Position numbers and translations under genes: made by a program. From the NCBI GenBank assembly GCA_030836805.1, contig JAUPLS010000054.1, forward strand, positions 1 through 32,537: a stretch of DNA of 32,537 bases, read 5' to 3'. This document shows, piece by piece, positions 17,324 to 24,246 of this stretch. The notes beneath the pieces were generated by a model that was not told where the DNA came from, did no database searches, and was given only the letters and a program-made list of their open reading frames with translations. Within the stretch, counting starts at the first letter, position 1. Each line of letters begins with the position of its first letter. The DNA is from Campylobacterota bacterium (lineage in GTDB: Bacteria > Campylobacterota > Campylobacteria > Campylobacterales > Sulfurovaceae).

Positions 17324-19405
17324 CTAATATTTAAAAATTATTCCCATACTGATCTGCCTGCCTGGAAAAGGAGCCGTCTCCTTTAAAAAAGAGAGGTGGT
17401 TCAGGGCTATAGAATCAGTGAGGTTCTCTCCTTTGAGCCACACCTCCCAGTCTCCATAACTTGTTTTTCTCTCCCACCTTACCCCTGCACTCAACCAATC
17501 ATACCCCTTGGTACCGGTTTCATTCGCAGCATCATTTCTACTCTTGTCTACCCACTTATAACCTATTGTATGCGTAAAGCTTCCTACTTTATCCTCTATT
17601 TCCAACGAGGCATTATAGGGAGACATACGCGGCAGATATCCACCCTCTGCGATCTTGCCTTGCAATGCATTAAGTTGTGCCGTAGTGGTAAGCTGATGGC
17701 CTTTTATCGTATATGAATATTGCTCTTGTACGCCCACCCCATAGATAGAGGCTTCTACCTCACACATTGTCCAAACAGAACTTCCGTGAAACGGATCCAG
17801 CAAAGGAGTACCGCTGCTGTCTACCATAGGAGATTGATAGATGTAATTATCAAAATGATAATAATAGGTATTGAATTTCGTACTCCATGGCGTACTCACA
17901 TAAAGCAGTTCGAAATCAAAATTGACTGAACGTTCGTTACTTAAATCTCTATTGCCCAGAATATAACTTTCTGTTGCATGGTGAAAACCATTCCAAAAAA
18001 GTTCTTGTGATGAAGGCAGTCTCTCAATATAGGCTAAAGAAGCTTGGGAAGAGAGATAATCATTCCATTCCCTAAACCATCCCGATGAGAAACTTAAGGC
18101 AAAATCATCTTGCGCATCATAATAGTTGCCATCAATACTCTTCGGCATAAGCCACTCCTCTTGGATATTATCAGGATTGGCACCAAGGTGTCTTGCGGTT
18201 ATATTGGCGCCAAAACTTATCTCGTCTTGCTCAAAAGGTTTTGAAAGACTCCATGCCGCACTACTTTTTGCCTCTTTCGTATCAGGCATAGGATGTCCAT
18301 GAGAGTAAGCAATTCCCGTATCATTGAAGTAGCCCGACACAGAACGGCCATCTTCTGCGTCCGTTCGAATGGGAATTTGAAACTCGCGACACTGTCCATG
18401 CTCATGACACACACGAAGGCCGGCGGCTAAAAAGTCAACCTTTGCCTCTCCTTGCCAATCAGATACATCAAATTCAAAACGGCTTGAAATACCGGTCTGC
18501 TCCTGAGCAAATCGTCCATCATATCGCCCACCTTCAGTCTCATAGTGATTGTAGTCACTGTATTGCACTTCAGTTTGAATATCATGAAGGGTATCAAAAA
18601 TATTTTTGGTGTGGACCACCATTCCATAACGCTTTTGCTCCATTTCAATGCGGGTTTCTTCTGATATGCCGTTAGGAATGCCATAAGATTTATCCATGAC
18701 ATCGCCATAGAGTTTGACAAGGTGATTCTCGTTGGCACGGTAACCCATAACTATGTGAGTCTGTTGCGTACTTGTATCTGAGGCATCAACTGTTTTGCCG
18801 CCTGATTTATAGTCATCACTTTGATGATCATAATGTGTGACATACGCAGAAAGATTATGTTCACTAAGGGTTGCCTTGAGCCCATTAGCAACTCCTGCGC
18901 TATTGCTTCCGCTGCTGCTTTGGAGTTCAACATGTTCTCCCTTGGGCAAAAGAGTTTTTTCGTGCTCTTCACCGATAGTGCGAATCACTCCGCCGCTATA
19001 GGCACCATATAGCAAAGAGGAAGGGCCCCTGATAAGCTCAAGGCGCTCTGTTGATTTGGGTGTCAGTCCGACAGCATGGTCTTGACTCATGGCAGAGAGG
19101 TCATTAAGCACCACATCACCCTGAATAATCCCCACGCGATATCCTTCCATGCCATGTACGACCGGCCTGCCGACTGCCGGGCCATAGCTAGCATTGTCCA
19201 CGCCCAGCTCATTTTCCAGATACTCGCCCAAAGTCTCTCCTTTGGCTTTTTTGGAGAGCTGATTGCTCTGCTGACTCTTCGTGTACCGAAGCACTTCTTC
19301 TTTGGAAGCAATATCCTCTTCGATAGTGATAGATTCTAACGTCGTTTCAGTATCAGCATACAAACAAACAGAAAACAAAAGTAGAAACCAGACAGATTTA
19401 TTCAT
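17324..19405 (-). CDS. TonB-dependent outer-membrane receptor, probable zinc receptor (ZnuD-like)
   Basis: Plug: RPVVHGMEGYRVGIIQGDVVLNDLSAMSQDHAVGLTPKSTERLELIRGPSSLLYG; His/Cys loop RVCHEHGQCREF...SHGHPMPDT; C-terminal beta-barrel GRQISMGIIFKY. Start placed at MNKSVWF (19405). Confidence 0.88.
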   Translation of the reverse strand: MNKSVWFLLLFSVCLYADTETTLESITIEEDIASKEEVLRYTKSQQSNQLSKKAKGETLGEYLENELGVDNASYGPAVGRPVVHGMEGYRVGIIQGDVVLNDLSAMSQDHAVGLTPKSTERLELIRGPSSLLYGAYSGGVIRTIGEEHEKTLLPKGEHVELQSSSGSNSAGVANGLKATLSEHNLSAYVTHYDHQSDDYKSGGKTVDASDTSTQQTHIVMGYRANENHLVKLYGDVMDKSYGIPNGISEETRIEMEQKRYGMVVHTKNIFDTLHDIQTEVQYSDYNHYETEGGRYDGRFAQEQTGISSRFEFDVSDWQGEAKVDFLAAGLRVCHEHGQCREFQIPIRTDAEDGRSVSGYFNDTGIAYSHGHPMPDTKEAKSSAAWSLSKPFEQDEISFGANITARHLGANPDNIQEEWLMPKSIDGNYYDAQDDFALSFSSGWFREWNDYLSSQASLAYIERLPSSQELFWNGFHHATESYILGNRDLSNERSVNFDFELLYVSTPWSTKFNTYYYHFDNYIYQSPMVDSSGTPLLDPFHGSSVWTMCEVEASIYGVGVQEQYSYTIKGHQLTTTAQLNALQGKIAEGGYLPRMSPYNASLEIEDKVGSFTHTIGYKWVDKSRNDAANETGTKGYDWLSAGVRWERKTSYGDWEVWLKGENLTDSIALNHLSFLKETAPFPGRQISMGIIFKY

Positions 19406-20297
19406 GGACGTGCTCATCTTCTCCTTCACCTATCCCTGCCATTTGTGTCGGCGCAAAGCCTTGAGGTAAAAATTTATCTACATTCCACGTGCTGTGTGCA
19501 TGAAAATCCATCCCATGATTATCAACCAAGTAGAGTTTTTGGCTTTGTGCTACAAATATTAACACTCCATGATCTCCATAAGGGATGATGCTGCTTTCAT
19601 CCTCTCTGCACTCTGTAACACCATCAAGTCCAAAAGGAGCTTGAACACTCTCCAGAACACCTTCATTTTCTTCAAAAACATATATCATCCCGCTCGTGCT
19701 TAGGGCAATATGCGCAGCAGCTTCTTCTGTGGCATTGCTCTCATGGGTATGCTCAGAAACAAAGAAATTACATAAACTTTCCCCCACCGGAAGCACTGCA
19801 CCAATCTCTGTTTTAATCGCTTCTTGTTCTGCCAAATGAGCGTTAAACCTCAAAAGGGTTGCTTTTTTTGCATTACTCGCTACACTAGGATCAAATTCGC
19901 TACTGCCATGGGCAGCAAACGTTTGGACATTATCTTCTGTATGAAAATGCCCAAGATAGTAAAAATCTTCAAAAGTAACATTGCCATCAATTGCAAAATC
20001 ATACTCAGCAGCAAGCATGATTATCTTTTCATCTCCTGCTGCGATATCGTTCCATGTAGTAAGATTGCCGTTTTTGCCTATCATATTGCAAGTAGCATTA
20101 TCCTCATTCATATCAACATAAGTTTCTGAAGTAGTATCATAACTGTATTGGCTTGAGCTTTGGGTATCATAAAAAACCAATGTTTTTTCATCAGGTAAAT
20201 CGATAGCAAGATCATCTGCCGAGCTGCTCGAACCTCCTCCGCATCCGTTTAAAACAAGCAGCGCTGCTGCAGAAAATGTAACAAGTGTTCTTTTCAT
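19398..20297 (-). CDS. His-rich secreted lipoprotein, candidate zinc-binding protein
   Basis: MKRTLVTFSAAALLVLNGCGGGSSSS lipobox; HFHTED, EHTHES, NHGMDFHAHS and C-terminal EDEHVHE. Overlaps the TonB receptor ORF (same operon). Confidence 0.75.
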   Translation of the reverse strand: MKRTLVTFSAAALLVLNGCGGGSSSSADDLAIDLPDEKTLVFYDTQSSSQYSYDTTSETYVDMNEDNATCNMIGKNGNLTTWNDIAAGDEKIIMLAAEYDFAIDGNVTFEDFYYLGHFHTEDNVQTFAAHGSSEFDPSVASNAKKATLLRFNAHLAEQEAIKTEIGAVLPVGESLCNFFVSEHTHESNATEEAAAHIALSTSGMIYVFEENEGVLESVQAPFGLDGVTECREDESSIIPYGDHGVLIFVAQSQKLYLVDNHGMDFHAHSTWNVDKFLPQGFAPTQMAGIGEGEDEHVHE

Positions 20298-20343
20298 TTA
20301 TGATTCTCCATTATTAATATTTATGAACGAAATAGTAGTTAAA

Positions 20344-20380
20344 AAAATATTAAATGCGACTGAGTTGCATTTAATATTTT
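20344..20380. promoter_or_regulatory. putative Zur-type operator (site 1), 37-bp near-perfect palindrome
   Basis: AAAATATTAAATGCGACT-G-AGTTGCATTTAATATTTT; one mismatched pair; 47-83 bp upstream of the lipoprotein start (20297, minus strand). Confidence 0.75.
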
Positions 20381-20503
20381 AGTATAAGGTTTCAAGAATC
20401 TAAAAAGAGAGATTTTTTTGGTTTAAGGGTGATTACCGCAAGGGGCCGGATGCATCAGAGTGGGCCAAAATATAAAGCAGGAAGAAATACTTCCCCCTAT
20501 AAA

Positions 20504-22645
20504 CTATTTGGCACCAAAAGGCACCGAGAGCCCAAAGCTGATATCTCTTCCCATTCCAAGCGCATATCCCTTATAGGTATCAAGATACCCGCGATAGGCT
20601 CTATCAAAAAGATTGGAAACTTTTACATTGACATCCACTTTGCTTTTGCCCATTTGAAGCCGTGTGTTGTATCCGACATCAAACAGAGCATACCCTGAAG
20701 TATCGGCGCTGCCAAACGGTGTATTGTTATATTGGGCAAACGGCTCAAATGCTCCTGCAACTTTTTGCTCTTCAAATACGCGCATATCAAGTGTAAGTTC
20801 ATTGTTGTTGCTTATGCCAAACGCACCAAGATTCTGAGTCACACCGAGTGAAGCATTGCTGGGCGGAATATAGGCCAAACGTGTATCATTTTTCGTATCC
20901 TCGCCTTGAATATATTCAGCAGTTGCCCGCAATGTTGTCATGGGACCGATAGGCATCTCAAATGACCACTCAATTCCTTGGATGATTGCATCGGTTTGCT
21001 CATGCTTCATCTCCGGAATGCCCGTTGGAGCTACTTCTCCCGTAACAGGATTGCGATACACGCCTGTATTGGCAAGATAGATATAATCATCAATGGTGTT
21101 GTGATAGAGTGTTAAACTGCTATAGGTCTCCTCTTCTTTGTATCTCAAAGAGAAATCAACTCCTAAAGTGCTTTCTTCTTTTAGGTAAGGATTGCCTATC
21201 TGAAACGCTTGCACGCCGCCATGGATGCCTCCGGCAAAAAGCTCAAAAATTCCCGGAGCTCGAAATCCTTTGCTAAGATTGGTTGCCAGCGCCCATGTCT
21301 CATCAATCTTATAAGTTGCCCCCAGCGAACCGCCCCATGAAGCAAACTCTTGGTTGTTTGTCGTATCATCGTAAATGCCATGATCCACAAAATAACTGCT
21401 GGTTCCCTCAAGCGCCGCTTTAACGCTTCTTGTATCGTAGCGCAGCCCTGTCTGGAGGATCCAGTCTTCAAGGTTTGCCTCCTCAAAAAGATAGACGGCC
21501 TTGCCCCATTCTTTTGCACTCGGAAGCAGTTTGCCCTCTTTGAGTTCTTGATCTTTGGTGTATCCTTCAAGCCCAACTTCTCCCACAAAAATCCCTACCA
21601 TGGGATGCGTGAGCGCGGCATGGAAATCTTTTCGATCGGTATCAATATCAAGATACAAAGGTGTACCCCTCACTGTCTGCATCTGCTGATAAGGCGTATT
21701 GGTTGCCGCTTCTCTTTGGTTACGGGTCATTGAAACTTTTGTCTCCACACTCCACTCCCCCAGATTCTTGGTTGCGCTCAGCTGCGTCTCATCATTGGTT
21801 AGTTTTTGTCCGGCGGAAGAGACGGCTTCAAATGCAGGTGCAGGGGTATGTCCAAGATAATTTTGCTTACTTTGCCAATAGGTGTGCTGCAGTGCGAATC
21901 TAAAATCATCATCCGTATATCCAGCCCCTACGCGCGCAGACTGATTCTTGAAGTCTGTGTAGGGCAACTCCCCGGCAAAAAGAGGCAAACTGCCTGCCGG
22001 ATCATCGCTTTCCCATGTTGCACTGTCCCCCGTATGATAATTGTCTGCCTCTCTTATGGAAGCGGCCACATTAACCCCCCATTTGCCTATCGCGCTCTGC
22101 GTTTTAAGTGCAGTTGCCTTCTCGTGATTATTGGTATGATATTCCCCCAAAAGCGTGCCCAGAAAAAGCGTTTCTCCTTCATCGGCAGCCAAATAAGCAG
22201 GGGTTATCACATTGACCACACCCCCTAGTGCATCCGATCCATAAAGCACCCCTTGGGCCCCACGAATCACCTCGATGCGCTCTGCCAAAAGCGGATCTAT
22301 GTTGTCAATATGTCTAATGCCGTAGGTTTGCGAATCGGTAGGACTGCCATTGGACAGCACCTTGATACGTTCGCCTGAAAATCCTCTGATTACCGGCTTG
22401 CCTGCTTGTGAGCCTGTCGAAAGATTGTTAACCCCTGCCATCTTTGACAGGATCTCGCCCATAGAAGCAGTCGAAGCCGATTCCATATCAGTGACGGCAT
22501 CGATTTGGCACGGCACGTCAAAAGCCTCATGCCCTAAAACAGGAGACGCCGAAACGGTTATAGCATCAAGATCAACACTCTTTTGTGCTCCATCTGCCGA
22601 CAAAAAAGAAAACCCCGCTATCACTATTCCTACTGTATATTTCAT
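20504..22645 (-). CDS. TonB-dependent outer-membrane receptor
   Basis: Signal peptide; plug GKPVIRGFSGERIKVLSNG...AERIEVIRGAQGVLYGSDALGGVVNVITP; C-terminal barrel MGRDISFGLSVPFGAK. Confidence 0.93.
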   Translation of the reverse strand: MKYTVGIVIAGFSFLSADGAQKSVDLDAITVSASPVLGHEAFDVPCQIDAVTDMESASTASMGEILSKMAGVNNLSTGSQAGKPVIRGFSGERIKVLSNGSPTDSQTYGIRHIDNIDPLLAERIEVIRGAQGVLYGSDALGGVVNVITPAYLAADEGETLFLGTLLGEYHTNNHEKATALKTQSAIGKWGVNVAASIREADNYHTGDSATWESDDPAGSLPLFAGELPYTDFKNQSARVGAGYTDDDFRFALQHTYWQSKQNYLGHTPAPAFEAVSSAGQKLTNDETQLSATKNLGEWSVETKVSMTRNQREAATNTPYQQMQTVRGTPLYLDIDTDRKDFHAALTHPMVGIFVGEVGLEGYTKDQELKEGKLLPSAKEWGKAVYLFEEANLEDWILQTGLRYDTRSVKAALEGTSSYFVDHGIYDDTTNNQEFASWGGSLGATYKIDETWALATNLSKGFRAPGIFELFAGGIHGGVQAFQIGNPYLKEESTLGVDFSLRYKEEETYSSLTLYHNTIDDYIYLANTGVYRNPVTGEVAPTGIPEMKHEQTDAIIQGIEWSFEMPIGPMTTLRATAEYIQGEDTKNDTRLAYIPPSNASLGVTQNLGAFGISNNNELTLDMRVFEEQKVAGAFEPFAQYNNTPFGSADTSGYALFDVGYNTRLQMGKSKVDVNVKVSNLFDRAYRGYLDTYKGYALGMGRDISFGLSVPFGAK

Positions 22646-22702
22646 CTTTATTCCCCTCTGTATGCTATCAATAGGTGGAATAGTAATGGAAAAGGTCTTA
22701 GG

Positions 22703-22717
22703 TGCAACTTAGTCGCA
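22703..22717. promoter_or_regulatory. putative Zur-type operator (site 2)
   Basis: TGCAACT-T-AGTCGCA 58-72 bp upstream of the TonB receptor start (22645, minus strand); same 7-1-7 pattern as sites 1 and 3. Confidence 0.7.
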
Positions 22718-22883
22718 TTTTATATTTTTTGCGAAGGGACAGAATGCTTCAAAGAAGAGATCTCTTCTCTTTTTTTAGGCTTCAGAATAATTTTTATTGA
22801 ATCAAATAATTAGAGGCCATCTTAATGCCATTAAACATATAAGTATTGAATACAGCATGAAAACAGTATGGGCATTAAAGCGG

Positions 22884-23267
22884 TCAAGAGGGTTTACTTT
22901 CTGTTTGGTTGCATTTTTTACATATTCCTTTTAAAATGACATCTTCTATCTTGTAGCCATCCACTTTTACATTTGTTACGGTTTTCATACACTCGATAGA
23001 ACTGCATATGTGGCAAATAAAGTGGGCATGCGCAGAGGCGTATATTCCATAATATCTTTTTTTATCATTGGATTCAAAACTATTGACGATAGACTCCTCT
23101 TCAAACCTTGAAACATTCCGATAAAATGTTGCTTTATCCATACTTATTTTATCTTTCACGTCTTCATAAGAAAGAGGCCGTTGGGCATTTAAAAATAATT
23201 CCAAAAGCTCTTTGCGGGCACTTGTCAATTTTAATTTTTTTTCTTCTATCAGTTTTTCTATTTGCAT
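22884..23267 (-). CDS. Fur family transcriptional regulator, probable Zur
   Basis: 127 aa; KLTSARKELLELFLNAQRPLSYEDV, DKATFYRNVSRFEEE, HAHFICHICSSIEC, CKKC. Divergent from znuA. Confidence 0.88.
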   Translation of the reverse strand: MQIEKLIEEKKLKLTSARKELLELFLNAQRPLSYEDVKDKISMDKATFYRNVSRFEEESIVNSFESNDKKRYYGIYASAHAHFICHICSSIECMKTVTNVKVDGYKIEDVILKGICKKCNQTESKPS

Positions 23268-23311
23268 AAAATAATCTTAGCACTTTAAATCTTTATGATG
23301 TCTGATACAAA

Positions 23312-23326
23312 TGCAACTAAGTTGCA
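23312..23326. promoter_or_regulatory. putative Zur-type operator (site 3), perfect 7-1-7 palindrome
   Basis: TGCAACT-A-AGTTGCA in the divergent intergenic region between the Fur-family gene and znuA. Confidence 0.75.
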
Positions 23327-23385
23327 ATTAAGTCGGCTGAAAGTACCATTCCTGAAATTATAACTGAAATTATAAAAGGATTGGG

Positions 23386-24246
23386 ATGAGAAAAATTATA
23401 TTTTTACTGGGTATTGTTCTGTATTCTCTTGCTTATGCAAAACCGAACATTATCGTGAGCATACCCCCGCAAAAAACATTTGTTCAGAAAATTGCAAAAG
23501 ATAAAGCAGAAGTTACAGTAATGGTAGAGCCCGGAAACTCTCCCCACTCGTATGAACCCAAACCTTCACAAATGGCCTCTGTTTCAAAAGCTGATCTTTA
23601 TTTTTCCATAGGTGTTGAGTTTGAGAATGTTTGGCTCGATAGATTTAAAGCGCAAAATCCGAAACTAAAATTTGTAGACATGGGCAACAAAGTGCCTAAA
23701 ATACAAATGGCAGAGCATCATCAACATGAGAGCAAACACCTCAATAAAGGACATCATCACGACGGAAGGGATCCTCACACCTGGGCTTCACCAAAAAATG
23801 TAGAGATAATGGCTAAAAATATCTATCAAGCCTTAGCACAAACCGATCCTGCAAATGAACCCTTTTACAAATCCAATCTGGATATTTTCATAAAAGAGAT
23901 TCAAGATACCGACGCACAGATTAAAAATGCGCTCAAAGAGGTAAAACCAAAAAGTAAATTTATGGTTTTTCATCCATCGTGGGGCTATTTTGCCCAGGAG
24001 TATAATCTGGTGCAAATAGCCGTTGAAGTAGAAGGCAAAAATCCAAAGCCAAAAGAAATGATCACGATTATCAATGAAGCCAAAGAGGAAAAGATCAAGG
24101 TGATCTTCGCGCAGCCTGAATTTTCAGATAAAAGTGCGCAAATCATTGCAAAAGAGGCCAATGTGGTTGTCAAAAAAATCTCCCCCCTTGATCCAAATTG
24201 GTCTGAAAATCTTATCAACATGGCACGTGAAATTGGGAGCAAATAA
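23386..24246 (+). CDS. znuA: zinc ABC transporter substrate-binding protein
   Basis: Signal peptide; VSIPPQKTFVQKIAKDKAEVTVMVEPGNSPHSYEPKPSQM; His loop EHHQHESKHLNKGHHHDGRDPHTWASP; ALKEVKPKSKFMVFHPSWGYFAQEY. Confidence 0.92.
   Translation: MRKIIFLLGIVLYSLAYAKPNIIVSIPPQKTFVQKIAKDKAEVTVMVEPGNSPHSYEPKPSQMASVSKADLYFSIGVEFENVWLDRFKAQNPKLKFVDMGNKVPKIQMAEHHQHESKHLNKGHHHDGRDPHTWASPKNVEIMAKNIYQALAQTDPANEPFYKSNLDIFIKEIQDTDAQIKNALKEVKPKSKFMVFHPSWGYFAQEYNLVQIAVEVEGKNPKPKEMITIINEAKEEKIKVIFAQPEFSDKSAQIIAKEANVVVKKISPLDPNWSENLINMAREIGSK

Follow-up and report, generated by a model that had tools for sequence, protein, structure and literature searches.

The window studied here, a stretch of 32,537 nucleotides of Campylobacterota DNA from a Sulfurovum-like bacterium, contains three copies of a 15-bp palindrome, TGCRACTwAGTYGCA, which we consider, with a probability of roughly 0.86, to be the operator (Zur box) of the 127-amino-acid Fur-family protein encoded locally, a Campylobacterota Zur. 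The argument runs from the sites, through their exclusivity, conservation and co-occurrence with Zur, to the register they keep with the promoters, and it is on sequence grounds that we infer that Zur binds the box, that it responds to zinc and that it represses.

A motif scan of the window identified TGCRACTNAGTYGCA as an exact 15-mer at positions 20355-20369, 22703-22717 and 23312-23326. A previous sequence-only reading had placed a shared 7-1-7 palindrome at these three positions, each upstream of a different unit, and both observations hold. Box 1 (minus strand, TGCAACTCAGTCGCA in the direction of the lipoprotein gene) is an exact match and lies 57 bp upstream of a lipoprotein/TonB-receptor gene pair on the minus strand. 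Box 2 (minus strand, TGCGACTAAGTTGCA in the direction of TonB receptor 2) is kept in relatives and lies 57 bp upstream of this second receptor. Box 3, to which no strand is assigned, sits in the 118-bp gap between the divergent genes for the Fur-family protein and ZnuA. The symmetry is complete only in box 3, with boxes 1 and 2 pairing at 6/7 positions. The same reading placed box 1 inside a 37-bp palindrome (20344-20380, no strand), which is real, with 11/11 flanking pairs and 6/7 core pairs, but its outer part is without conservation in relatives. Across 124 sites from relatives palindromy outside the 15-bp core was in no excess over expectation; the longer symmetry is thus peculiar to site 1, and we rejected the idea of an operator extended to 37 bp. 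A possible overlapping box at 23323-23337, 11 bp downstream of box 3 and with 3 mismatches, is conserved only in its TTAAG flank on the znuA side, so that a second dimer next to box 3 over this flank is possible but unproven.

The draft genome (1.73 Mb in 175 contigs, 94% complete) contains the exact 15-mer three times, always in the window and always upstream of metal-uptake genes. A first-order Markov model predicts 0.0005 chance matches per window and 0.025 per genome, against the three observed. When up to two mismatches are allowed the genome contains 8 sites for the motif vs 2 for the reversed pattern, and the five extra two-mismatch sites all fall within ORFs. The random genome-wide scatter that would have spoken against an operator is absent, both here and in relatives, where a gene start lies within ~92 bp at 120/123 unique sites. 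Some small negative box-to-gene distances among these stem from the choice of start codon.

The putative regulator (22884-23267, minus strand) was assigned by its FUR domain (PF01475, E 1.5e-12), invariant residues and fold. The structure model has a mean pLDDT of 85, and Foldseek matches it to PerR, Fur and Zur structures. Seven residues (H80, H82, C85, C88, C93, C116 and C119) are shared without exception by 14 Zur orthologues. The two CxxC pairs (C85, C88, C116 and C119) fit the residues of a structural Zn(Cys)4 site, and H80, H82 and C93 are, as we assume by Fur-family structures, the candidate sensor ligands. The Fur and PerR proteins of Campylobacter and Helicobacter (PDB 4ets, 6d57, 2xig, 6dk4) are among the nearest solved relatives of Zur by sequence and have the same fold and CxxC pairs, but the similarity is weak (E 1e-2 to 1e-6), and the segment between the CxxC pairs is shorter in Zur than in these proteins or in the Fur/PerR-like paralogues that coexist with it in the same genomes. 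Counting against the Zur reading, the PDB sequence matches of the regulator are PerR and Fur, and the E. coli-type Zur equivalog of NCBIfam (PRK11639) scores 21.4 bits vs a cut-off of 167. No curated Zur model reached its cut-off, and the best score of the NCBIfam Fur and PerR equivalogs was 32.8 bits vs a cut-off of 180. Phylogenetically each Zur group is monophyletic, and the root vs Fur/PerR did not resolve. Taken together, the regulator appears to have those genomic and structural features of a Zur that could be checked.

The genes behind the boxes point to zinc. The ZnuA-family substrate-binding protein (23386-24246, plus strand; PF01297, E 6.9e-70) carries a His-rich loop (HHQHESKHLNKGHHHDG), and its best NCBIfam model is the zinc protein AztC. 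TonB-dependent receptor 1 (17324-19429, minus strand), whose gene overlaps the end of the lipoprotein gene, has ZnuD (NF038289) as its best NCBIfam model (E 1.5e-49). ZnuD is a zinc-piracy TonB receptor, and the two have receptor type and probably zinc control in common, but receptor 1 scores far below the cut-off (169 vs 950 bits) and its gene is paired with that of a His-rich lipoprotein. Receptor 2 (20504-22645, minus strand), with a plug and a barrel, has hemin receptors as its nearest NCBIfam models and then ZnuD, all below curated cut-offs. The His-rich loop of ZnuA and the ZnuD-like receptor speak for zinc without amounting to proof. A strong match to ZnuB (ABC-3) was not found in the source assembly, which has only a weak one (E 2e-5), and this counts against our explanation. 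The absence may be an assembly gap in the draft; in the close relatives G034, G035 and G038 znuB lies far from znuA and has no exact box.

It is conceivable that the same Fur-family protein binds the box but senses manganese, nickel or cobalt, making this the regulon of that metal. Some ZnuA-family proteins bind manganese, and some NicO proteins transport nickel or cobalt; manganese substrate-binding protein models also score on ZnuA, NicO-DUF1007 proteins are targets in relatives, and the candidate sensor residues differ between clades. This reading is nonetheless unlikely given the His-rich loop, the best models of ZnuA and receptor 1 being zinc proteins, and the standing of ZnuA as the commonest partner of the box (57 target genes). 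The NicO-DUF1007 fusions, which adjoin znuA or lie directly under a box (L063:6130-7629, L068:4166-5599 and L154:2759-3982), are candidate zinc permeases.

The lipoprotein (19398-20297, minus strand, 299 amino acids) has its lipobox cysteine at position 19, conserved histidines at 117, 130, 261, 266 and 268, and no match in Pfam or NCBIfam. An alignment of its family (A2) displays the histidine pattern YLGHFH, AAH and DSHGxDFHxH and a His-rich C terminus. With its orthologues it would constitute an unannotated family, paired with a ZnuD-like receptor. The structural model is beta-rich and has weak beta-propeller matches, among them the periplasmic zinc chaperone AztD, which shares the context of zinc uptake. 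AztD is one of many such weak matches (E 7e-3, TM 0.22), and homology to the lipoprotein is not supported. In eight loci of relatives (L087, L090, L214-L216 and L218-L220) a small protein of ~117-145 amino acids is encoded just ahead of the lipoprotein gene, an arrangement that the window lacks, and several of these small proteins end in an APP-containing tail.

If the box is the operator of this Zur, the two should travel together, and they do. We scanned 119 genomes of relatives for the exact motif, with the reversed pattern as a control; the motif was present in 22/119 and the control in 0/119. A Fur-family orthologue (E < 1e-19) was likewise present in 22/119, of which 19 have the exact motif, while the motif occurs in 3/97 genomes without the orthologue and is absent in the other 94. 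The co-occurrence gives a Fisher p of 4e-16, which is optimistic because the genomes are related. Each of the three motif-bearing genomes below the orthologue threshold has a divergent zur-znuA pair with an adjoining box. Three orthologue-bearing genomes have no exact motif. In G079 the gap between zur and znuA holds two boxes with one mismatch each, in G026 a box with one mismatch precedes receptor 2, and in G112 the stretch examined contained no box.

Lipoprotein orthologues in genomes that lack Zur (G001, G005, G011, G037, G045 and G052) have no upstream box. In G005 and G011 a partial or shifted match had placed the 300 bp examined within the gene, so that for these two the evidence comes solely from scanning the entire 2.8-3.5-kb locus, which gave 3-4 mismatches at best. 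We also looked for an iron Fur box upstream of the lipoprotein orthologues and found none. Two Zur-bearing genomes, G031 and G039, carry the lipoprotein-receptor pair downstream of zur and of the zur box. The box could instead be the operator of Fur or PerR, other regulators encoded in the genome, with the neighbouring gene a mere passenger, as 7-1-7 palindromes are frequent among Fur-family operators and Fur/PerR-like paralogues exist in these genomes. We regard this as very improbable, since most of the 94 motif-free relatives without an orthologue have Fur/PerR-like paralogues, the three exceptional genomes have their own zur, and the box is missing at the lipoprotein orthologues of Zur-less genomes. 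The earlier assignment of the box to a local Zur-like regulator therefore fares well: the motif tracks the Fur-family orthologue, and where Zur is missing the lipoprotein gene has no box.

Named loci were also retrieved by protein and not by motif, one genome per species, which makes this test independent of how the motif was found. The 80 loci come from Sulfurovum, Sulfurimonas, Sulfuricurvum, Sulfurospirillum, Arcobacter, Aliarcobacter, Malaciobacter, Poseidonibacter and Halarcobacter. In 58/80 the best match in the 220 bp ahead of zur had 0 or 1 mismatch; the reversed and shuffled controls gave 0/80, always with at least 4 mismatches. The other 22 loci have best matches of 3-7 mismatches, none at 2, and count against our explanation. 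A logo built from 123 unique sites reads TGC(A/G)ACT(T/A)AGT(T/C)GCA with A/T-rich flanks. The first genes at sites of relatives are zur (73) and znuA (57), followed by TonB receptors, NicO-DUF1007 fusions, one member of the lipoprotein family and singletons. The expected conservation upstream of orthologues is thus seen at zur, at znuA (~53 loci) and at receptor 2, which has an upstream box in G034, G035, G038, G026, G055 and G065 and in each Zur-bearing relative examined that has this receptor.

Two boxes 35-53 bp apart were present in 33 loci, mostly in divergent zur-znuA gaps, as if there were one box per promoter, vs the single shared box in the gap of the window. Such pairs occur at several promoters in G097 (L061-L064) and other Arcobacter-type loci; G097 has seven exact boxes, at TonB-receptor and znuA promoters.

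The boxes of the window keep a fixed distance to the predicted promoters. A TAC(T/C)AT -10-like element lies exactly 32 bp from the box start in 3/3 structural-gene promoters: TACTAT at 20332-20337 (minus strand) for the lipoprotein-TonB receptor unit, TACTAT at 22680-22685 (minus strand) for TonB receptor 2, and TACCAT at 23344-23349 (plus strand) for znuA. With the -10 beginning at this distance the -35 is covered by the box; at znuA a predicted -35, TTGCAA (23322-23327, plus strand), comes from the right half of box 3 and is followed by a 16-bp spacer. Aligning the orthologous sites in the znuA direction revealed a conserved TANAAT at +32 and an AAG element at +18 to +20, whereas a generic sigma-70 scan had missed these -10 elements. 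TANNAT occurs at exactly +32 in 32/53 znuA sites, vs 0-4 sites at each other offset from +24 to +49. This fixed promoter register is new in this analysis. For the zur promoter the aligned orthologous sites gave no single fixed -10 register, which counts against our explanation. In L074, L089, L090 and L091 a -10-like element ends ~7 nt before the zur ATG, a spacing at which the zur mRNA of some Sulfurovum relatives may be leaderless.

We rejected the proposal that the palindromes act as RNA attenuator hairpins and not as protein operators, the least probable of the alternatives. In its favour, box 3 was flagged as terminator-like and a strong hairpin could form from the 37-bp palindrome. Against it, the predicted -10 elements come after the boxes, which would then not be transcribed from these promoters, the conservation is one of sequence and ends at 15 bp, and no Rfam match was found.

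In the operator model that we favour, a zinc-loaded Zur dimer would occupy the 7-1-7 palindrome of 15 bp. The right half of this palindrome would supply the -35 to the promoters of znuA, the TonB receptors and the lipoprotein. With the -35 in this half and the -10 at +32, Zur on the box would exclude RNA polymerase. Box 3 would serve both zur and znuA, and the autoregulation proposed in the sequence-only reading gains support from this box upstream of the regulator gene itself. When zinc runs short Zur would come off the DNA, allowing synthesis of ZnuA, the His-rich lipoprotein and the outer-membrane receptors.

Zur regulons are known from Proteobacteria, Actinobacteria, Gram-positives and Cyanobacteria (PMC6103462). 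Their palindromic boxes, 7-1-7 or 9-1-9, often lie over the -35, autoregulation is frequent, and znuA(BC) and TonB receptors are among the targets (PMC6103462). The words Campylobacter and epsilon are absent from that review. The system described here resembles these regulons in its Fur-family regulator, its palindromic box on the predicted -35, its putative znuA and TonB-receptor targets and its probable autoregulation, but the Campylobacterota regulator is short (114-127 amino acids). To our knowledge the box sequence also differs from known Zur boxes. The motif had not been recognised as a described Campylobacterota Zur box, and likewise we found no earlier description of a Campylobacterota Zur, its box or the 15-mer in the literature, subscription journals and RegPrecise being outside our scope; hits to 'Zur' in two Campylobacterota papers were German reference text and not the regulator. 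Within that scope the box looks new, if provisionally so.

The box extends beyond this lineage and is shared by more divergent regulators. In f10, the family of G099 and probably the Campylobacteraceae, the exact box was present in 47/120 genomes and the reversed control in 0, and most of the retrieved loci carry it in the space between znuA and zur. The PerR-like protein of G099 matches 6dk4, presumably a Campylobacter jejuni structure, at E 2e-61. In a further family, f15, the box is found upstream of zur-znuA operons. The f10 sites, whose sequences were read by eye, have a TATAAT-like -10 that begins ~20 bp after the box start, closer to the box than the +32 register by about one helical turn. 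Both arrangements would place a bound dimer on the polymerase site. In f10 Zur the first His of the HxH and the third Cys are mostly absent; the candidate sensors H80, H82 and C93 are mostly lost there. As the box is nevertheless common to these proteins, operator recognition would seem to be conserved where the residues are not, although such variation among proteins sharing the box counts against our explanation.

One f10 genome, G197, has 15 exact copies of the 15-mer, of which two lie in or flank its zur-znuA gap. The remaining copies examined belong mostly to one dispersed repeat (TGCAACTCAGTTGCAtttggtagttaattcccctcctgcgg) that holds the 15-mer with a central C, and the 15-mer can therefore also occur within a repeat; G197 had looked like a breach of the pattern, a reading that we dropped. 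This repeat (contigs C42, C49, C71, C110, C116 and others; L262-L271) has unrelated genes around it and contains TGCAACTCAGTTGCA or TGCAACTCAGTCGCA, then a conserved CCCCTCCTGCGGAGGGG stem.

We would tentatively extend our explanation, at somewhat less than even odds, to a single operator, TGCRACTwAGTYGCA, used phylum-wide with a rebuilt sensor site, together with a module of His-rich lipoprotein and TonB receptor for zinc acquisition. If true, DNA recognition has stayed fixed across the short Zur proteins of the Campylobacterota while the candidate sensing residues changed. The phylum takes in vent and sulfur-oxidising primary producers as well as Campylobacter, and a near-exact 15-bp code with a fixed register would make their zinc regulons readable by sequence alone. 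The code predicts outer-membrane zinc receptors and the unannotated lipoprotein family, and a single purified protein and a single DNA oligonucleotide would suffice to test zinc control in these bacteria.
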